From the NCBI GenBank assembly GCA_025358925.1, contig JANYHT010000044.1, forward strand, positions 62,001 to 126,000: a DNA stretch of 64,000 nucleotides. The letters are read 5' to 3'. The translations under genes were made by a program, and so were the position numbers. The notes beneath the pieces were generated by a model. That model searched no databases and had not been told where the DNA came from. It saw only the letters and a list, made by a program, of their open reading frames with translations. This document shows positions 46,808-56,755 of this stretch, in pieces. This DNA comes from Gemmatimonadaceae bacterium (lineage in GTDB: Bacteria > Gemmatimonadota > Gemmatimonadetes > Gemmatimonadales > Gemmatimonadaceae). The stretch's first letter is position 1, and the number at the start of each line of letters is the position of its first letter.

Positions 46808-46960
46808 GGGGGAGGCTACATTCGGAAACGCGACAATGGCAAGCGGCAGAGTCCGACGCGCACGACCTGCGTCCCGCGGGTGGGAATGAAATCGCTACTG
46901 CCGCCGTCCCCACAAGTGTCGTCTTCACCCGCCGAGACCACCAACCATATTGGAGCATGC

Positions 46961-48253
46961 ATGCGCCGAGCTGTACGTAGTGTCGTTTTCGCCCTCTTCG
47001 CCGCAGGTGCGACGGCGTGCGGCAAGAGTGATTCTGGCAGCACGCCGCCGACGCCAGTGGCCGCGACCATCACGCTGACCCCCGCGAGCACGGCCTCGTT
47101 GGTTTCGATTGGAGAGACACGAGCGATGACGGCGGTAGCGAAGGATGCCAGCGGAACGGTGCTCGCCGCTCCAACGGTCACCTTTGCGTCGAGCAACGCG
47201 GCGGTGCTGAGCGTCGTAGGCTCGGGCACGACTGCCACCGCGACCTCCACGGGGAACGGCTCAGCCACAATCACGGCAACAAGCGGCACAGCAACGTCGA
47301 GTGTGAATTTTGTGGTCGCGCAAGCGTTCGCGACCGTTGCGGTCACGTCCGCCACGCCCTCGGTGCCAATTGGCGGTACCACTGCGCTCACCGCGACAGC
47401 GCGTGATGCCAAGGGTGTTGCGATCACCGGAACGACTGGCTTCACCTTCGCATCCGCCACACCGACCGCCGCAATCGTCAGCGCGAGCGGTATAGTGACG
47501 GGTATTGCGCCAGGTGCTTCAGTCATCACGACGTCGCTGACAAAAGACGGCGTCACGTCCACCGGTACGGCAACGGTGACGGTGATTGCACCCGCGCCGA
47601 CTCCGAGCAGCGCGACAATCGCGGCAACGGTGGGCAGTCAGTTTACTCCCCCGAGCGTGAGCATCGCCGCAGGTGGTACGGCGACGTGGGATTTCGCATC
47701 GCTCACGCACAACGTGACGTTTAGCACGGCCGGATCGCCGACGAATATTGCAAACTCCGCCAGTGCGTCAGTGTCACGTACCTTTCCCACCGCCGGCACC
47801 TACGCGTACATCTGCACGATCCATGGCTCGGGCATGTCCGGGACAGTCACAGTCGGAGCGCTGGGCTTCGTGGCCCCGACGATGAATGGTGCGAACGAGC
47901 GTCCAGCGGCCAACACGACAACTGGCAATGGTAGCGCGGTGTTTTCCGTTGCCGGTTCGACGGTTTCGTATACGGTTGCCTTCCAAGGACTCACCAGCGC
48001 ACCCACGGGTCTGCACATTCACGCGCCCGGCAATGCGAACGCGGCCGCAGCGGTCATTGTCGACCTGCTCACGACGCCGCAAACGAATACGAGCGGAGTG
48101 CTCACGGGCACCTTCTCGGCAACCAATATTCGTAACGCTGGCGTCTCGCTCGACTCCTTGTTTGTACTGATGCGTAACGGCAACGCCTACGTCAACATTC
48201 ATACGACGGCCAACCCAGGTGGCGAAGTGCGCGGCACACTCGGCTCGCCATAA
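46961..48253 (+). CDS. Lipoprotein with Ig-like, cupredoxin and CHRD domains
   Basis: 430 aa. The lipobox AGATAC gives C20. Two bacterial Ig-like (Big-type) domains (about 33-120 and 122-210) are Thr/Ala-rich. A blue-copper (cupredoxin) domain follows (about 218-298) with all type 1 ligands: H250 (LTHNV), C285, H288 and M292 (YICTIHGSGMSG). A CHRD domain closes the protein (about 303-430, GANERPAANTTTGNGSAVF, GLHIHAPG, NPGGEVRGTL). It is a membrane-held copper protein, probably electron-carrying. The ATG at 46961 has GGAG 5 nt upstream. Divergent from the M1 gene. The ECF sigma gene follows after 38 bp. Confidence 0.82.
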   Translation: MRRAVRSVVFALFAAGATACGKSDSGSTPPTPVAATITLTPASTASLVSIGETRAMTAVAKDASGTVLAAPTVTFASSNAAVLSVVGSGTTATATSTGNGSATITATSGTATSSVNFVVAQAFATVAVTSATPSVPIGGTTALTATARDAKGVAITGTTGFTFASATPTAAIVSASGIVTGIAPGASVITTSLTKDGVTSTGTATVTVIAPAPTPSSATIAATVGSQFTPPSVSIAAGGTATWDFASLTHNVTFSTAGSPTNIANSASASVSRTFPTAGTYAYICTIHGSGMSGTVTVGALGFVAPTMNGANERPAANTTTGNGSAVFSVAGSTVSYTVAFQGLTSAPTGLHIHAPGNANAAAAVIVDLLTTPQTNTSGVLTGTFSATNIRNAGVSLDSLFVLMRNGNAYVNIHTTANPGGEVRGTLGSP

Positions 48254-48291: not shown

Positions 48292-48915
48292 ATGGCTATA
48301 TCGGCCGATGTGCTGCTGGCGGAGCGACAAGCGCGCTTTCACCTGCTTGTGCTGCCGCACCTCGATCGGTTGCTGGGGTTTGCCCAGCGACGGACCGATG
48401 GCAACGGTGATGCCGAAGACGCCGTGCAAGACGCATGCATGCGCGCGTGGAGCGCGTTCGACGAACTGCGTGATGAATCTCGTGTGCGCGCTTGGCTGTA
48501 TCGCATTCTGCGCACCGTCCTTAGCGATGCGTTCGAGAAAGAGGGGAGGCGTCGTCAGCTGGTGTCCATCACGCGACTTGAAGACGCGCACGAAACGATG
48601 GTTGGTACTGACACCGATTTTGTCTTCACCGAAGTTGTCGCGCGCATGGATCGCGAACAATTGCGCGATGCCTTATCCAATATTCCCGAAGATTTTGCCA
48701 CGGCGGTTGAACTTCATGATATCGATGGCTTCAAATATCACGAGATTGCGGACATCACCAGCGTGCCGATCGGCACCGTGATGAGTCGTATTTCGCGCGG
48801 GCGTCGATTGCTGGCTGGCGCAATTGTCGAGAGTCGCGCCGCTTGGCCGTTGGGCGTCCACGTTGAAGTTGACCAACATGTCGGCGTGCACGCTGTACAT
48901 CGGAAGCGGACATGA
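48292..48915 (+). CDS. ECF-type RNA polymerase sigma factor
   Basis: 207 aa. Region 2 (about 18-85) has DAEDAVQDACMRAWSAFDEL and RAWLYRILRTVLSDAF. Region 4 (about 122-175) is a helix-turn-helix with FKYHEIADITSVPIGTVMSR. About 30 extra residues at the C-terminus are rich in Val and His (HVEVDQHVGVHAVH), not usual for small ECF factors. Its stop overlaps the ATG of an anti-sigma factor gene, so the two form a sigma/anti-sigma switch that should respond to an envelope signal. The target promoter is not known, and no matching repeated promoter stands out by eye. Confidence 0.92.
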   Translation: MAISADVLLAERQARFHLLVLPHLDRLLGFAQRRTDGNGDAEDAVQDACMRAWSAFDELRDESRVRAWLYRILRTVLSDAFEKEGRRRQLVSITRLEDAHETMVGTDTDFVFTEVVARMDREQLRDALSNIPEDFATAVELHDIDGFKYHEIADITSVPIGTVMSRISRGRRLLAGAIVESRAAWPLGVHVEVDQHVGVHAVHRKRT

Positions 48916-49802
48916 CGCGCGACGGGCGAACAGCGACTGGGCGCGATTCGCGCGATCTGTCTCCTGGGCAGGCCACGCGAGAAGAACGACATCAGCTATT
49001 GGCAACGCTGCTTGGTGCGTATGCCGATGGTGAGTTGCCGTCGGAAACGGCGTCACAAATCGACGCGCATCTCCTCGGGTGCACGCGATGTCGTCACGAA
49101 TTGGAGGTGCAGAGCGCGCTGCGGCACGCGTTGGACAGTATGCCGCGTGTGCGTGCCTCCAACGCCTTGCGTGAACGCGTGATCGCGCTGATCGCTGCGG
49201 CGCCGCATGTCGTGGTGACGGCCGCACCATCACGCGTGCCATCGGCGATGCGATCGCCACGCACGCGTGTCGCCCTGACGGCGCTCACCGTGTGCGTTGT
49301 TGTCGCGGTTGCGCTGATCTGGCAACGCGACGCTGCGAAGGGCGCGGCCGCATCAGCACCCACGACGATGGTTTCGCTGCCGTCGGTGGATCTTTTTTCG
49401 GCTGTACTCGTCGACTATCGTCGCGTCACGTCTACAGATTTGCCCGGACGCGCCCGCGACCTTGCGTCGGTTCGAGCCGCGCTGCCGTTTCCAGTGGAGC
49501 CGCTGACGTCCGCGCAGCTTCGTCTCTTGGCCGTGTGGACCACCGATTTACGTGGAGAACCCGCCGCCGTGCTGGCGTACCGCTGGCGTGATCAGCTGGT
49601 GGTGCAATATGTCGTATCGGAACAAGTGCTCTTCCGGCCCTCCGAAGTACGTCGTGTGTTCGCCGCCGGTCATCCGCTCGGTGCGGTCGACGGCGCGCAA
49701 GGGTTGCTCGCATGGCCAGCACGAGAAAGCGGCGAATTTCTCATTGGCGAAGCGACGCCCTCGCAGCTTGCCTCGTTGCGGGAGCGCGCGAGTCGTCGCT
49801 GA
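48912..49802 (+). CDS. Transmembrane anti-sigma factor with zf-HC2 domain
   Basis: 296 aa. The cytoplasmic N-terminus has the HxxxCxxC zinc motif of anti-sigma factors (H53, C57, C60 in DAHLLGCTRCRHEL). One membrane helix lies at about 119-136 (VALTALTVCVVVAVALIW). The periplasmic part (about 140-296) ends with RSGEF-like strand sequence and probably senses a signal or is cut. It would hold the ECF sigma factor encoded directly upstream (4-bp overlap) at the membrane. The next gene begins 8 bp later. Confidence 0.9.
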   Translation: MTRDGRTATGRDSRDLSPGQATREERHQLLATLLGAYADGELPSETASQIDAHLLGCTRCRHELEVQSALRHALDSMPRVRASNALRERVIALIAAAPHVVVTAAPSRVPSAMRSPRTRVALTALTVCVVVAVALIWQRDAAKGAAASAPTTMVSLPSVDLFSAVLVDYRRVTSTDLPGRARDLASVRAALPFPVEPLTSAQLRLLAVWTTDLRGEPAAVLAYRWRDQLVVQYVVSEQVLFRPSEVRRVFAAGHPLGAVDGAQGLLAWPARESGEFLIGEATPSQLASLRERASRR

Positions 49803-49810
49803 TTTGTTTC

Positions 49811-51181
49811 ATGCGTTGTCCTTTCAAAACATTCGTTGTTCGAGTACTGGTCGTGATGCTGGCGGTGGCGGTGCCGATGATGGTACGAGCGCAAGCTGGG
49901 TCGTCCGGCGCCGCGCAACTTGATACGTCCGCCGCATCCGTTGACTCGCTGGCCGCGCGTCTCGCGCGTGCAGAGGCAGCTATCGAAATGCTCCGGCGCC
50001 AACTGGCCATCGAAGCAAGCTCCGTCGTAAAAACGCGCTCGCGACTGCAGCTGGAGTTATCCGGCCGAGTGCTCACCAACGCGTATTACGACAACACACG
50101 ATTTAACAGCAGTGAGGTGCCATTGTTTGTGCGCGAGGGGTCGGCTCCTTCGTCGGGCACGCGCAATGGCACCGCAGGTAGCCGCGTCTTCGGCGCCTCC
50201 ATTCGACAAACCATGCTCGGTGCGTCGCTCGGTGTCGATAGTGTCCTCGGAGGCAGCTTCGTCGGCGATATCGATATTGATTTCTTTGCTGCGGCAACGC
50301 CGGGCGTGGATGCGTTTCCAACGCCGCGCCCACGACTCCGCACGCTACGCGCGCAAATCACGTGGCCGAAAACCGAAATCATGGTGGGATCGGATGGACC
50401 GTTGATCGCCGATGTCGATCCCGCGAGTGTTGCGACGGTCGGATTGCCAGGATTCACCGCAGCGGGCAATCTGTGGAATTGGATCCCGCAAGCGCGGGTG
50501 TCGCGAGAGCTCTTGGCCACAAGGATTGGCGTAACGCAACTGCGATGGAGTGCGCAGCTTGCACTGCTCGCTCCGACAACAGGCGACGTGCATCCGTCGG
50601 AACTCGATGGCGTCGATGCGGGAGATCGCTCGGCACGTCCGTCAATCGAAGGACGTCTTCGCGTGCGGTGGGGTACGGACGATGCGCCGGATGACCAACA
50701 CGGAGAAATTGGAATCGGCACGCATCGTGGATGGCTCCGCATATCGGGCGATACGTTGACCACTGCTAGCGCGACCGCCATAAGCGTGCGCATGGGTTTA
50801 ACGCATGGTCTCTCACTGCGCGGCGAAGCGTATCGCGGTCGCGCTGTTCGTGGCCTTGGTGGCGGCGCCATTGGTCAGAATTTTGGTGTCGCCGCAGTTG
50901 GGCAAACACTTGGCGCGCCACTACGAAATACCGCCGGTTGGGCGCAGCTGCTCGCGCAGGTTCGGCCTACAATCGCGACGGGCCTTGGATGTGGTGTCGA
51001 CGTGGTGAACGTCGCCGACCGGCCGGACCGACAGCGCAATGCCAGTTGCGCCGGGAATATTGCGTGGCACCCCACGCAACCGGTGGTTCTTGGATTTGAG
51101 ATTCGGACGCTGGCCACGCACTACGCGAGTGGCACGCGTCGTGGAACGCAGTTCAACCTTGCCGCCGGATTCGAGTGGTGA
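49811..51181 (+). CDS. Putative porin-like outer-membrane protein with N-terminal coiled coil
   Basis: 456 aa. A signal peptide ends near MMVRAQ. A short coiled coil (VDSLAARLARAEAAIEMLRRQL, about 36-60) is typical for porins that hold on to peptidoglycan or partners. After it come alternating strands with LRAQITWPKTEIMVGSDGPL, RWGTDDAP and a final FNLAAGFEW ending in an aromatic residue. No family is certain. The ATG at 49811 starts the signal peptide. The stop overlaps the cupredoxin gene by 4 bp, which suggests that the two products share a task. Confidence 0.68.
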   Translation: MRCPFKTFVVRVLVVMLAVAVPMMVRAQAGSSGAAQLDTSAASVDSLAARLARAEAAIEMLRRQLAIEASSVVKTRSRLQLELSGRVLTNAYYDNTRFNSSEVPLFVREGSAPSSGTRNGTAGSRVFGASIRQTMLGASLGVDSVLGGSFVGDIDIDFFAAATPGVDAFPTPRPRLRTLRAQITWPKTEIMVGSDGPLIADVDPASVATVGLPGFTAAGNLWNWIPQARVSRELLATRIGVTQLRWSAQLALLAPTTGDVHPSELDGVDAGDRSARPSIEGRLRVRWGTDDAPDDQHGEIGIGTHRGWLRISGDTLTTASATAISVRMGLTHGLSLRGEAYRGRAVRGLGGGAIGQNFGVAAVGQTLGAPLRNTAGWAQLLAQVRPTIATGLGCGVDVVNVADRPDRQRNASCAGNIAWHPTQPVVLGFEIRTLATHYASGTRRGTQFNLAAGFEW

Positions 51182-51879
51182 GGGATATTCAACGCGTGCG
51201 TCGGTGGTTGGCACTCTGCATTGTCAGCAGCCTGAGCATCCGCGGCGACGTATTGGCGCAGGGATCGGTAAGCGGTCGCCTGACGATCGTGGATCGGGTC
51301 GACGCTGTCGCTCGCGATGTTGGTAGTGCGATTATCCAACTCGAATCGCTTGATCCAACACGACGCGAGCGTAGCGATGCACTGGCCGCAACGCAGATCG
51401 ACATGCGCGGACGTGAATTTCTGCCGCATGTACAAATCGTCCGCGTTGGCGGCAAAGTCACGTTTCCGAACAGCGATCCATTCAGCCACAACGTGTTCTC
51501 GAATAGTGCGCTCGGAACGTTCGACTTAGGACTCTACCGATCGCGCGTTTCGCGATCGTCCACGTTTGATCGCCCGGGCACCTACGCGATCTACTGTAAC
51601 ATTCACGCCCGCATGGTGAGTTTCGTCGTCGTTGTCAACACGCCGTATGTGACCAAGGTCAGAAGCGATGGGCGCTTTGTGATGAGCGGCGTGCCCGCAG
51701 GCAGCTATCGATTGCGCGTGTGGCACGAACGCGCGCCAGAGCTGCTGCGGACCATTGATGTGCCGGCAGGCGGACTTGTGGACGTGGCGGTAGCACTCGA
51801 CGCGCGAAGCTACGTGGAGAAACCGCATTTAAATAAATTCGGCGTTCCGTACATCGCGACACGTGCTGATCGCTACTGA
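51178..51879 (+). CDS. Exported cupredoxin protein ('methylamine utilization protein'-like)
   Basis: 233 aa. The signal peptide ends near DVLAQG. The central domain is a cupredoxin with a full set of type 1 copper ligands: His in FSHNVFS (about 104), then Cys, His and Met in YCNIHARM (about 140, 143, 146). Before it lies the segment MRGREFLPHVQIVRVGG. A carboxypeptidase-like beta domain follows (RFVMSGVPAGSYRLRVWHE). Proteins of this layout are often labelled methylamine utilization proteins, though no methylamine genes are here. GTG start in a GTGA overlap with the porin gene. Overlaps the kinase gene by 17 bp. Confidence 0.8.
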   Translation: MRDIQRVRRWLALCIVSSLSIRGDVLAQGSVSGRLTIVDRVDAVARDVGSAIIQLESLDPTRRERSDALAATQIDMRGREFLPHVQIVRVGGKVTFPNSDPFSHNVFSNSALGTFDLGLYRSRVSRSSTFDRPGTYAIYCNIHARMVSFVVVVNTPYVTKVRSDGRFVMSGVPAGSYRLRVWHERAPELLRTIDVPAGGLVDVAVALDARSYVEKPHLNKFGVPYIATRADRY

Positions 51880-54025
51880 GGGTACGCGACGTCGTATTGG
51901 GTTCACGGGGCGAGTTTTTCTCGTGACCGCAACGCTCGTCGGCGTTGTCGTGGCGATCGCGCTCTTGATCGCTTCTAACTCCGTTCAACGCAGTAGTGAA
52001 GCGACCGCACGTCGCGGGCTTGAGCAGTCCGCCGATTTAGTGGCGCAATTTCTCTCCGGCCGCGAGCGCAGTTTGGCGGGCGGTGCTAGTGTGTTTGTGC
52101 AGGGACCGTACTTTCGGACGCTGGTCTCCGAACGACGCTCCGACGATATACTCGATCAAACATTCGAAGCGGTGTCGCAGTTGGAGTCGCAGTGGGTCTC
52201 CATCACCGACGCGCGAGGCGTGTTACTCGCGAAGTCCGACGAACCTGCAGTACGGGGCGACGAACTCGGGGGCGTTCCGCTCATTGCAGGCGCGTTACGA
52301 GGGAAGGTCACGGCAGGGTTTGGTGTGTCGCACGACTCGCTACTCTTTCAAGCGGTGGCTGTGCCCATTGTCATTCCCGGCGGTATTCTGGTCGGTGCGC
52401 TTATTGCTACTCGATTGGTCGACTCGTTGCTGGCCCATGATGTTCGTGCCGCAACGGCAAGTGAGGTGGTGTTTTTCACGCGCGCGGTTGATGGCACGAT
52501 ACGCGTCGCCGCATCTACACTCGGTCGCGACGCTGCGGTGCTGTCCGCCGTCCGCAGACTGACGGCGCTGCCGAGTGGCGGCATGGCGTCCAATGTGCCG
52601 CAACCGGGCTTGCGCGTGGATAGCATCGACTACCTCGCTCAGCGCGCCTCGCTCACCACGGCGGGAGGCGAAGTCGTGGGCGGATTTGTCGTCCTGCGTT
52701 CGCGCGACGTCGAGCGCAGTGGCCTGGCTGGCGTGCAACGATCTATCGTGCTGGCAGGCGTGATTGGATTTCTCTTAACACTCGTTGTTGCGTACGCTGC
52801 GGCGCGGCGTATCGCGCGGCCCGTCCGCGTCCTGGCTGATGCGGTGCAACGGGCTGCTGACGGAGACTATCACGGCACTGTCGCGCATTCGGTGCTGGGT
52901 TCCAGCGCGGGCGCGGAGGTGACAGAATTGGCCGAAGCGTTCGATTCGCTGTTGACCGACTTGCGCGATAAGGAAGCCTTGATCGCCATGCGGGTTGCTA
53001 ACGTCGCGGTGCGATCCGAGGCGCTATCACCAGCGGACGACCCCGGCGCTCGCCGTGGGCGACGGTTGCGTTTAGCCGGAGGAATATTCAGCATTCCGGA
53101 TCCACATCCGCACGCAGGTGCGCGACCGGGCATCGTCATGCAACCGGGAAGCATCCTCGCCAATCGATATCGTATCGATGCATTGCTTGGCAGCGGTGGC
53201 ATGGGCATGGTCTATCGTGCGTTTGATCGCACGCTCAGCGACACCGTCGCCGTGAAATTGTTGCGACCGGAAGTTGTGGTAGCGGATGCGGACGCCTATG
53301 CGCACTTCAAGCAAGAGCTTCGCCTTGCGCGGCGCGTCACGCATCGTAATGTCGTTCGCACGCATGACTTGGGCGAATCTGACGGTGTGCCGTTCATTAC
53401 GATGGAATTCGTTGACGGCAAATCACTTGCCGAAATCATTCGCGCGCGCGGTGCGCTCTCCACCACGGTAGTGGTCGCAATCGCCAAACAGCTGCTGCGC
53501 GCGTTGGTCGCGGCGCATGCGCAACAGGTGGTACACGGCGATCTGAAGCCGCAAAACCTGCTCATCGGACCCAACGGTGTGCTCAAGGTGAGCGACTTTG
53601 GGGTCGCGCGTTTGGTCCGCGATCCATGGCGCGGTGCGCTTCCGCGTGATGCGAATGATGCGGCGGAAAATACGTCGCGATTGCGCGGTGCCGTGATTGG
53701 CACACCAGAGTACATGGCACCCGAGCAGTTAATCGGTGGTAGCGCGACGGTGCAAAGTGACATATACGCCGCCGGTATTGTGTTGCATGAATGTGTATCC
53801 GGAACAACGCCATACCGTGCTGACACGCCGATGGCGTTTTTCGCGCACAAGCTCGATACGCCCGTATCCACTGTCACACCAGATAGTCACGCGCCAACGA
53901 TGCGCGCTCCGCGCGCATCGAACAGCGTGGTCAAACAAATAATTGCACATATGACCGCGCATGACGTGGGCAGTCGACCGATTTCTGCGTCTGTGCTATT
54001 GGCGCGCTTTAGCAGAGTGCTTTAA
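51863..54025 (+). CDS. Transmembrane Ser/Thr protein kinase with Cache-like sensor and HAMP
   Basis: 720 aa. TM1 lies at about 18-38. A periplasmic double-Cache-like sensor spans about 41-290 (VSITDARGVLLAKSDEP). TM2 is about 295-316 and a HAMP domain about 317-370. A Hanks-type kinase fills about 436-720: GSGGMG (443-448), VAVK (K465), VVHGDLKPQN, SDFG (578-580) and GTPEYMAPEQ. The usual HRD is HGD (558-560), so it is a non-RD kinase that need not be switched on by activation-loop phosphorylation. Cache-HAMP is more usual before histidine kinases or GGDEF domains. GTG start within the cupredoxin gene. Confidence 0.9.
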   Translation: MLIATEGTRRRIGFTGRVFLVTATLVGVVVAIALLIASNSVQRSSEATARRGLEQSADLVAQFLSGRERSLAGGASVFVQGPYFRTLVSERRSDDILDQTFEAVSQLESQWVSITDARGVLLAKSDEPAVRGDELGGVPLIAGALRGKVTAGFGVSHDSLLFQAVAVPIVIPGGILVGALIATRLVDSLLAHDVRAATASEVVFFTRAVDGTIRVAASTLGRDAAVLSAVRRLTALPSGGMASNVPQPGLRVDSIDYLAQRASLTTAGGEVVGGFVVLRSRDVERSGLAGVQRSIVLAGVIGFLLTLVVAYAAARRIARPVRVLADAVQRAADGDYHGTVAHSVLGSSAGAEVTELAEAFDSLLTDLRDKEALIAMRVANVAVRSEALSPADDPGARRGRRLRLAGGIFSIPDPHPHAGARPGIVMQPGSILANRYRIDALLGSGGMGMVYRAFDRTLSDTVAVKLLRPEVVVADADAYAHFKQELRLARRVTHRNVVRTHDLGESDGVPFITMEFVDGKSLAEIIRARGALSTTVVVAIAKQLLRALVAAHAQQVVHGDLKPQNLLIGPNGVLKVSDFGVARLVRDPWRGALPRDANDAAENTSRLRGAVIGTPEYMAPEQLIGGSATVQSDIYAAGIVLHECVSGTTPYRADTPMAFFAHKLDTPVSTVTPDSHAPTMRAPRASNSVVKQIIAHMTAHDVGSRPISASVLLARFSRVL

Positions 54026-54037
54026 CCGCTGCATCGA

Positions 54038-55048
54038 CTACTCATCGAGAAACATGTTGTCCGCGATCGCGGCGATTTCTTCCGCATCACGCCACGCGTC
54101 TTCCAACGCTGTCAGCTCGCCCTGCATCGCCTGGCGTTCGGCGTCCTCGTGCACGGCAATTTCAAGTGCCATGCGTTCCACGGCGGTCAGGCCAAGTACG
54201 CCTACGTCATCGTCCCAAAAGATGCTGTTCTTGCGCCGCCGCGTCACCCGTAACGCGCTGCTGTTTCGGATGTATCGTTCGGCATCGCCCACCTCTGTAA
54301 TGCGTTTCGTTGCTTCGCGAATTTGCATGGTGGATCCGGACTGATGATTGACGCGGGCTAGGAGCTGGCCCGCCACGTGCACCGCCTGTGCGCCCTGTAA
54401 GTCAGTCACACCGGACTGGTGCGCGACGCGCAACATCCACGCCTGCTGGTCATACGCTGTGATAATCTCGAGTCGAGCCAAATGATTAAATTGCAACGCA
54501 TGCACTGTACCGTCCGGCGTGCGTATACGCGCGAGCACGCGATCGTAGCTGATCCGCGCCTCCGCTTGCTCGAGGGCGAACAAGAGCGAGTCGCGCACGA
54601 CGCGACTGCCGGACGCCGTGACTGCGAGACCGACCACGGACGCTGCGGCGCCGACCAACATAGCAGCGCCCGTGTGTAAGCCTGTAGTCGCTATAGCGCG
54701 CGCACTACGCAGTCGACGCCGTCGGAGGCGCGCACCATATCGCCACGCTGCGAATTCCGGTCGTAACGGTTTACCAACGCGGACAAGGTCGAGCCCACCG
54801 TCTAACGTCGCGAGACCGATATTTTCCGTCGAAACGCGCACCGTCGTATCACGATATTGTCGCTCGCACGCTTCGACGGCTTCCCATCGCGACTCAATCG
54901 GCGAGAGGTTCCAGTTAAAGCAATGTCGGCACACAACCCATAAGCGACCGCGCGAAGCGTCAAAGGCGAGCCGACGTCCTATCGGAAACGCTTCGAGCAC
55001 GTCATTGCGCCCAAGTCCCTTATGACAAAACAAACACGTTGAGTACAT
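54038..55048 (-). CDS. CxxC membrane protein, uncharacterised
   Basis: 336 aa. The N-terminus has two CxxC pairs (C5/C8 in TCLFCHKGLGRNDV and C40/C43 in VCRHCFNW), as for a zinc ribbon or HNH-like zinc site. Then come STENIGLATLDGGLDLVRVG and LRPEFAAWRYG. A hydrophobic stretch (about 118-145) gives one or two membrane helices. The C-terminal half is charged and ends with long helices (TALEDAWRDAEEIAAIAD). From memory, close relatives recur in Gemmatimonadota genomes as unnamed proteins. Convergent with the kinase gene (12-bp gap). Function unknown. Confidence 0.65.
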   Translation of the reverse strand: MYSTCLFCHKGLGRNDVLEAFPIGRRLAFDASRGRLWVVCRHCFNWNLSPIESRWEAVEACERQYRDTTVRVSTENIGLATLDGGLDLVRVGKPLRPEFAAWRYGARLRRRRLRSARAIATTGLHTGAAMLVGAAASVVGLAVTASGSRVVRDSLLFALEQAEARISYDRVLARIRTPDGTVHALQFNHLARLEIITAYDQQAWMLRVAHQSGVTDLQGAQAVHVAGQLLARVNHQSGSTMQIREATKRITEVGDAERYIRNSSALRVTRRRKNSIFWDDDVGVLGLTAVERMALEIAVHEDAERQAMQGELTALEDAWRDAEEIAAIADNMFLDE

Positions 55049-55249: not shown

Positions 55250-56755
55250 ATGATCAACTCGCATTTGCCACGATACCCTACGGTTGAGCCAGAAAACGCG
55301 CCGGCATCCCGCGGAAGCTGTGTCGACTGCGCGCGTTTTGATCGTCGTGGGTTTTTGTCAACTGCGTCGCTTGTCTCACTGGGGATGCTTGTCGCCGCGT
55401 GCGGTGACGGCACCATTGGCGGGCCGAGAGACATTCCAGGGATTGCGCTGACGCCGCTCCGTGTCGACCCGAAGCTGCTGCCCGCTTTGACGGAAATTGG
55501 CGGACGCGCCGTGGTGATGCCGATTGATGGTGCGCCGATGGTGGTGGAGCGCCTGAGCACATCGAAATACCGTGCATTTCTTTTAGCCTGTCCGCACAAG
55601 GGCACGACGGTCGATCTCACGCCCTCGGGTTTCTTGTGCCCAAATCACGGCGCGCGCTTCTCACGTGATGGACTTTGGCTTGGCGGTCAAGATACAACGG
55701 ATCTCGTGCCGATCGGCGTCACGGTGCAAGCCGATGGAGTACTGCTCGTAGGCGGGCTGGCTTCGCCCGATCTACCGCCCGCGTTGATCCTCTCAACGAA
55801 AACGCTCTCGTATGTAGTGGCGACCCCGGGTGCCGACCCAGCCGCACAAATCATTTCGCTGACAAATGGCGGCGACGGCACGCTGACCGGTTTGTCGGTG
55901 TCGCTCACGTACGGCGCCGATCAGCCTACTGGATGGCTCACAATCGCCCTCTCGCAGAGCGCCGCGCCATCAGCAGTTGCTGTTACCGCACGACGCGGTG
56001 CGCTGGCGGCAGGCACATACACTGCCACGATTCGAGTCAACAGCGCGATCACAACCGATGCACAAAACGTCTCGGTGTCGCTCATCGTGCAAGATCCGTC
56101 AAAAGCGGCCGCACTACAACTCTCTGCGTCATCACTAGCATTTGCGGCATCGAGTACTGCCTCTCCTGCTGCGCAAACGGTGCAAGTACTGAACTCGGGT
56201 GGTGGAGTGCTCGGTGGTCTCGCGTTTACCGTAAGCTATGGCAATGGCGCGACCGGTTGGCTCGCAACATCCGCGTTGAGTTCGTCAACAGCGCCGGCAA
56301 CGCTTACCATCAAGCCCATCACCGCCGCGCTTGCGGTAGGCATTTATACGGCCACGGTGCAAGTCACAGGTGTGGGCGTCACCGCGCGCTCAATCACAAT
56401 CACGGTAACGATTGCGACGCTGGGCCTCGCGGTCACGCTCGCCAATTTCCCTTCGCTGGCGAACGTTGGCGGCGTTGCGGGCAGTGTGGGTCTGGTCAAC
56501 GGCGGACCGGTCGCACTGGTACGCGCCACTGCCACAACATTTGTCGCTTTTTCGATGCGTTGCACACATGCAGGTACAACGGTTCGCGTAGAGAATTACG
56601 CGAGCAGCGGATCTGCATTTCATTGTCCCAACCACGGAGCGCTCTTTAGTAACAGCGGAGCCGTGCTCGCCAGTTCACCGATTCGCACGTCGCCACTCAC
56701 GATGCTGCAAGTTTCCTATAAGTCGGGTGAACCAATATTGTACATCAGCGGCTAA
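55250..56755 (+). CDS. Tat-exported lipoprotein with two Rieske domains
   Basis: 501 aa. A twin-arginine signal (DRRGFLSTAS, RR at 32-33) runs into a lipobox (LVAAC, C51). Rieske domain 1 has its [2Fe-2S] ligands in CPH (C114, H116) and CPNH (C130, H133). Rieske domain 2 has CTH (C438, H440) and CPNH (C459, H462). Between them (about 185-400) lie two BACON/Ig-like repeats with related phrases (AAGTYTATIRVN, AVGIYTATVQVTG). Tat export suits folded Fe-S proteins. Two Rieske centres at the ends of one lipoprotein are unusual. A CxxC (C24, C27) precedes the signal. ATG start, probably its own promoter in the 201-bp gap. Confidence 0.85.
   Translation: MINSHLPRYPTVEPENAPASRGSCVDCARFDRRGFLSTASLVSLGMLVAACGDGTIGGPRDIPGIALTPLRVDPKLLPALTEIGGRAVVMPIDGAPMVVERLSTSKYRAFLLACPHKGTTVDLTPSGFLCPNHGARFSRDGLWLGGQDTTDLVPIGVTVQADGVLLVGGLASPDLPPALILSTKTLSYVVATPGADPAAQIISLTNGGDGTLTGLSVSLTYGADQPTGWLTIALSQSAAPSAVAVTARRGALAAGTYTATIRVNSAITTDAQNVSVSLIVQDPSKAAALQLSASSLAFAASSTASPAAQTVQVLNSGGGVLGGLAFTVSYGNGATGWLATSALSSSTAPATLTIKPITAALAVGIYTATVQVTGVGVTARSITITVTIATLGLAVTLANFPSLANVGGVAGSVGLVNGGPVALVRATATTFVAFSMRCTHAGTTVRVENYASSGSAFHCPNHGALFSNSGAVLASSPIRTSPLTMLQVSYKSGEPILYISG

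Follow-up and report, generated by a model that had tools for sequence, protein, structure and literature searches.

A cupredoxin encoded beside dCache receptors of varied output in Gemmatimonadota and Proteobacteria: a candidate periplasmic sensor pair

The window analysed here, a 64,000-nucleotide stretch of the genome of a soil-type Gemmatimonadaceae bacterium (contig JANYHT010000044.1, positions 62,001 to 126,000), contains five co-directional genes (48292–54025) that, judging by open reading frames and domains, encode an extracytoplasmic function (ECF) sigma factor, a zf-HC2 anti-sigma factor, a porin, a cupredoxin (blue copper protein) and a receptor in which a dCache ectodomain is joined through HAMP to a Ser/Thr kinase. 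The genes are tightly packed: sigma and anti-sigma genes overlap by 4 bp, an 8-bp gap separates the anti-sigma gene from the porin gene, and the porin/cupredoxin and cupredoxin/kinase junctions are overlaps of 4 and 17 bp, respectively. A preliminary description of the window had reported these five frames, their overlaps and their domain types; all are confirmed, the coordinates to the base. It overlooked the putative promoter at 46882 and a sixth member of the operon, the plastocyanin-CHRD gene, which we assign to the operon because the best match in the window to a promoter matrix (see below) lies just upstream of it. We focus on the cupredoxin and the receptor, which form the conserved core of the locus.

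Table 1. Features of the cupredoxin-receptor operon, in window coordinates
Feature	Position	Strand	Evidence
Putative ECF promoter GGGAATG-N16-CGTC, control of the operon	46882..46913	+	Best matrix match in the window; equivalent site in near relative L002
Plastocyanin-like and CHRD protein, secreted or lipid-anchored; opening gene of the operon and its second cupredoxin	46961..48253	+	Copper-bind 36 bits, CHRD 80 bits
ECF sigma factor	48292..48915	+	Sigma70_r2 and r4_2 above cut-off; TIGR02937 74 bits vs 42.9
zf-HC2 anti-sigma factor, one predicted transmembrane helix, conserved periplasmic domain	48912..49802	+	zf-HC2 39.6 bits
Outer-membrane porin, 16 strands, N-terminal coiled coil, DcaP-like fold	49811..51181	+	AlphaFold, Foldseek, conserved neighbour
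Exported cupredoxin, predicted type 1 copper ligands, CarboxypepD_reg-like domain, HxNKxG tail	51178..51879	+	Ligand alignment, structure-profile matches
Membrane receptor kinase: transmembrane helix, dCache_3, transmembrane helix, HAMP, Ser/Thr kinase	51863..54025	+	Pfam domains
Periplasmic dCache_3 ectodomain	51980..52738	+	dCache_3 29.4 bits; AlphaFold; Foldseek
Kinase domain	53168..53995	+	Pkinase 161 bits; Lys, Glu, Asp, Asn and DFG present, HGD for HRD

Searches with the cupredoxin retrieved 20 loci of the Gemmatimonadota type, one of them titled Kuenenia and probably a mislabelled bin. A porin gene was present in all, and a Cache kinase gene adjoined unless the contig ended. Recurrence of the gene set in all 20 loci, contig-end losses aside, confirms that the association is not due to chance. 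Two gene orders were observed: either the co-directional sigma, anti-sigma, porin, cupredoxin and kinase genes of the window, or a porin gene divergent from cupredoxin and kinase, without sigma. At E 1e-10, a relative of the cupredoxin was found in 193 of 298 sampled Gemmatimonadota genomes, more distant groups included.

A receptor carrying one of four outputs lay within 3 kb at 100 of 107 loci with a full-length cupredoxin (>105 bits), a non-random set in which best-scoring matches were fetched first, near relatives were included and eight duplicates were removed; for weaker cupredoxins from the same searches and the same two phyla, Gemmatimonadota and Proteobacteria, the figure was 0 of 24. 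Using a profile of the ectodomain only, we confirmed the dCache domain in 91 of the 100 receptors, including members not in the profile. An independent search with the receptor N-terminus (Cache profile) gave 67 strong matches (E < 1e-60); set against the list of cupredoxin matches, these had a cupredoxin gene adjacent in 60 cases, not adjacent in 5, and a contig end in 2. Cupredoxin and Cache receptor, whose co-occurrence the preliminary description had proposed to check, are conserved neighbours.

The cytoplasmic part of the receptor is far from constant. Outputs seen were Ser/Thr kinase, GGDEF-EAL, class III adenylate/guanylate cyclase and histidine kinase. Gemmatimonadota receptors comprise 59 Ser/Thr kinases plus 3 cut short or split, 11 histidine kinases and 6 cyclases, the histidine kinases or cyclases adjoining lower-scoring cupredoxins; those of Proteobacteria comprise 12 GGDEF-EAL proteins, 5 Ser/Thr kinases, 3 cyclases and 1 histidine kinase. 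On plasmids of Comamonas, Caballeronia and Novosphingobium the cupredoxin, mostly annotated ‘methylamine utilization protein’, is encoded directly before an ‘EAL domain-containing protein’ in which Pfam recognises dCache_3, HAMP, GGDEF and EAL, and DUF3034 and an exported group 1 truncated globin are present in three of four such plasmid records. These plasmids bear out the statement, made in the preliminary description, that Proteobacterial cupredoxins lie beside Cache-type GGDEF/EAL proteins. The accompanying idea of one sensor module with its output swapped for a Ser/Thr kinase holds more widely than proposed, extending to cyclases and histidine kinases and to some Gammaproteobacteria that have the kinase. 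In the class to which Albitalea belongs, Gammaproteobacteria in GTDB, the sampled loci included receptors of all four types, and the cupredoxin tree requires several changes of output.

At five loci from that class (L135–L139, one with DUF3034) the receptor that accompanies the cupredoxin is a dCache Ser/Thr kinase, which suggests transfer of the kinase version between phyla. The GGDEF-EAL version was accompanied by DUF3034 and the exported group 1 truncated globin at L132–L134, L142, L144, L148, L150 and L151; the globin hints at oxygen or nitric oxide chemistry at the Proteobacterial loci.

Predicted type 1 copper ligands of the window cupredoxin are H104, C140, H143 and M146, in this order, with a C-x2-H-x2-M spacing like that of amicyanin. 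Beyond the copper site the protein continues with a CarboxypepD_reg-like domain and ends in a conserved tail. All four ligands are invariant in 21 Gemmatimonadota cupredoxins and intact in every aligned full-length relative, irrespective of output type. Compared with known structures, the cupredoxin profile matched plastocyanin and amicyanin (E between 1e-5 and 3e-3) and copper nitrite reductase (2e-6). Identity as an amicyanin was rejected on score: TIGR02657 of NCBIfam gave 25.1 bits vs an equivalog cut-off of 110.2. Copper binding by the protein is predicted from its ligands. The H-x-N-K-x-G tail is common to kinase-type cupredoxins of both phyla and missing from cupredoxins with other outputs; this distribution suggests a single origin of the kinase version, with transfer between phyla. 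Two separate groups of cupredoxins lack Cache neighbours: one (L153–L174), of the C-D-x-H-G-W-M type in many members, retains the copper ligands, and the other consists of small cupredoxins from Ramlibacter- and Albitalea-like genomes (L022–L025).

When scanned by itself, the receptor ectodomain matched dCache_3 (PF14827) above the cut-off of 25.7 bits. Its AlphaFold model has a double Cache fold (mean predicted local distance difference test score, pLDDT, 91.8), with DctB, LuxQ and Mlp24 as the nearest folds in Foldseek and PctA also near; HAMP scored 35 bits. No conserved His/Cys/Met cluster was apparent in the dCache alignment, and a metal site in this domain or in the periplasmic domain of the anti-sigma factor was rejected for want of such a cluster. 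The kinase domain retains Lys, Glu, the catalytic Asp, Asn and DFG, i.e. the Hanks-type residue set, and is probably active. Its catalytic loop reads HGD, not the HRD of RD-type kinases, and HG- is found in nearly all sigma-type loci. In this sigma-type lineage 7 of 21 receptor kinases (L007, L175–L178, L187 and L189) have lost Lys, the catalytic Asp or DFG, the rest having HGD; catalytic residues are intact in all complete kinases of sigma-free loci. Judged by these residues, the kinase is degenerating in the ECF-containing lineage, where pseudokinases have formed repeatedly while sensor and cupredoxin were retained. Among Cache receptors close to that of the module, L195, L197 and L198 are without a cupredoxin; a probable FAD-dependent oxidoreductase gene adjoins in L195 and L198, and the Cache frame of L197 and L198 has no kinase domain.

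The sigma factor has regions 2 and 4, the anti-sigma factor carries a zinc motif HxxxCxxC (His53, Cys57 and Cys60 invariant in 12 relatives), and a promoter motif precedes their own operon, as in ECF systems with a zinc-binding (ZAS) anti-sigma factor. Kinase-activated sigma factors of the ECF43 type (EcfP/PknT) have no anti-sigma factor and miss the acidic residues of region 2.2; this assignment was rejected here, since an anti-sigma gene overlaps the sigma gene and the acidic region 2.2 sequence DAED is present. By its distribution the pair is lineage-specific and lies outside the core module, because loci in which the porin gene faces away from the cupredoxin lack it. The preliminary description had placed all five genes in one coupled module; the core of it is cupredoxin and receptor, and the sigma/anti-sigma pair does not belong to that core.

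At 19 loci of other genomes the sigma gene is preceded by a motif GGGAATA-N16-C[G/C]TC. The weight matrix trained on these loci, with the window excluded, had its best match in the 64-kb window at 46882 (16.7 bits; runner-up 14.7), before the plastocyanin-CHRD gene. In many relatives this gene is located 3′ of the kinase gene and is there preceded by its own copy of the promoter. Overall, 37 matches were found in 327 kb of sigma-type loci vs 3 in 1283 kb of other loci; about half of the 37 are training sites, and those before the CHRD gene are independent. The window sigma factor may recognise the putative promoter at 46882. A wider regulon was not evident in its own genome: the pattern matched exactly at 13 places, among which the window site ranked top, and another, located 264 bp before an open reading frame in L216 (15.9 bits), was unconvincing. 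At L014:9897–10514 and in L191 a further ECF sigma gene lies downstream of the kinase gene and has a separate copy of the motif.

In its predicted structure (mean pLDDT 68) the porin is a barrel of 16 strands with a coiled coil at the N-terminus, and the top Foldseek match was DcaP (6eus, E 1e-13, 15% identity); a Pfam scan of the protein gave zero matches. The preliminary description had expected similar porin genes in Proteobacteria. The protein found there is DUF3034, whose profile does not resemble that of the Gemmatimonadota porin, and homology of the two was rejected (hhalign probability 2%). Beyond the receptor gene lie a 336-aa open reading frame (54038–55048) and a protein with two Rieske-type domain matches (55250–56755), both syntenic in relatives.

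We propose that cupredoxin and receptor form a conserved two-protein periplasmic sensor, in which the cupredoxin relays redox or copper state to a dCache receptor with interchangeable output; we put the probability of this reading at roughly one half. In its favour we count what the sequences show: the conserved neighbourhood and ligands, the ectodomain shared across outputs, the HxNKxG tail of the kinase-type cupredoxins, the promoter matches and the correlated trees of cupredoxin and dCache. The exported cupredoxin, with its one predicted type 1 copper site, would act on the dCache ectodomain of the receptor from the adjoining gene. If the cupredoxin were oxidised, reduced or stripped of its metal, its engagement or occupancy of the dCache domain would alter, and the change would travel through the second transmembrane helix and HAMP to switch the cytoplasmic output: in the window a Ser/Thr kinase, presumably with a substrate of its own, and in relatives a GGDEF-EAL protein, a class III nucleotide cyclase or a histidine kinase. 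The ECF pair would have been added in the lineage of the window. Its sigma factor is proposed to recognise the promoter before its own operon and before the plastocyanin-CHRD gene; copper proteins, porin and receptor would therefore be produced together, with positive feedback.

Most dCache receptors lack known signals, and a constant, cofactor-bearing partner offers a concrete candidate in Gemmatimonadota and Proteobacteria, with one input joined to four outputs as a natural experiment. A bolder and more tentative idea is that a blue copper protein is a direct dCache ligand, so that the redox state of an electron carrier would be converted into protein phosphorylation, cyclic di-GMP, a cyclic mononucleotide or a phosphorelay by a general redox sensor pair of at least two phyla. 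The sensor pair would also give a function to a family named after methylamine use, though no sign of a methylamine pathway is seen beside it. The ECF branch would represent a second regulatory circuit layered on top, alongside the repeated loss of kinase residues.

Several points weigh against the sensor pair. The evidence consists of sequence and predicted structures, from which we infer contact, copper loading and signalling. The window cupredoxin scores slightly under the Pfam cut-off for Copper-bind (20.2 vs 21.2 bits). In 9 of the 100 receptors, belonging to the histidine-kinase and cyclase types of Gemmatimonadota, the ectodomain was unrecognised as the Cache of the module, and the cupredoxin appears not to be strictly required, because five Gemmatimonadota Cache receptors have no neighbouring one. 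No natural cupredoxin-receptor fusion was found among the long open frames checked. Finally, small molecules are the usual ligands of dCache domains, and the role of the cupredoxin could be simply that of a co-regulated electron carrier.

The last point can be developed into a reading that we hold possible, if short of probable: the dCache domain senses a small molecule, as is typical of such domains and of a piece with the nearest folds DctB, Mlp24 and PctA, while cupredoxin and porin are effectors outside sensing, serving electron transfer and nutrient uptake. Co-occurrence of the porin, and in Proteobacteria of the exported truncated globin, as well as the few Cache kinases without a cupredoxin, agree with it. 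However, cargo should differ between organisms of different physiology, and no other partner is as constant as the cupredoxin when porin type, globin and output change; its gene usually lies directly 5′ of that of the receptor. Cupredoxin and dCache trees also correlate (r = 0.82 over 57 pairs, reached in 0 of 2000 permutations; 0.86 within Gemmatimonadota kinases), although such a correlation is expected from shared descent or species history as well. Copper homeostasis, in which the cupredoxin would store or deliver copper and the receptor would regulate uptake or tolerance in response to copper status, seems unlikely: the predicted ligands are fully conserved and a second plastocyanin-like protein is under the same promoter, but no copper pump, multicopper oxidase or copper chaperone was recognised among the Pfam-scanned genes around the window module, the dCache alignment is without a conserved metal-ligand cluster, and type 1 sites serve redox, not transport. 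That functionally uncoupled genes were inherited together as a lineage-specific operon is highly improbable. Synteny in Gemmatimonadota does reach genes for an M1 peptidase and a Rieske protein that are probably unrelated, but cupredoxin and receptor stay together in both phyla although every other neighbour differs, and their pairing outlasts output swaps.

A sensor pair of cupredoxin and dCache receptor would resemble LuxP-LuxQ and TorT-TorS, in which a soluble periplasmic protein is paired with a membrane sensor and sets its activity. There, too, the periplasmic partner is encoded beside the receptor, and LuxQ has one of the folds nearest to the ectodomain of the window receptor; those partners are binding proteins with histidine-kinase outputs only, whereas here the partner is a cupredoxin. 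The Proteobacterial ‘methylamine utilization protein’ and EAL loci, described by annotation only, share the cupredoxin family and the dCache_3 ectodomain with the window but have a GGDEF-EAL output, DUF3034 and exported globin instead of the porin, and no ECF pair; no functional study of these methylamine-utilization/EAL/DUF3034/globin loci was found in the open-access literature. Nor was a published description of a cupredoxin-Cache receptor pair found there, which is weak evidence of absence, and a review of cyclic di-GMP sensory systems makes no mention of copper or cupredoxins. PknB-type receptor kinases are likewise membrane Ser/Thr kinases with an external sensor, and NF033483 of NCBIfam matches the window receptor partially, below cut-off; the window receptor differs in having dCache and HAMP rather than PASTA repeats, and an HGD catalytic loop. 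The porin shares its 16-strand barrel and N-terminal coiled coil with DcaP of Acinetobacter but has no detectable sequence family membership, and confidence in its model is moderate. In HmsC-HmsD of Yersinia pestis a periplasmic redox-sensitive protein controls a membrane diguanylate cyclase (PMC8846402); HmsC acts through disulphides and abundance, with no copper site, and no swapped outputs are described (PMC8846402). We file the cupredoxin and its receptor with systems of this kind, a periplasmic partner and its receptor, among which a cupredoxin as partner and the variety of outputs are new.

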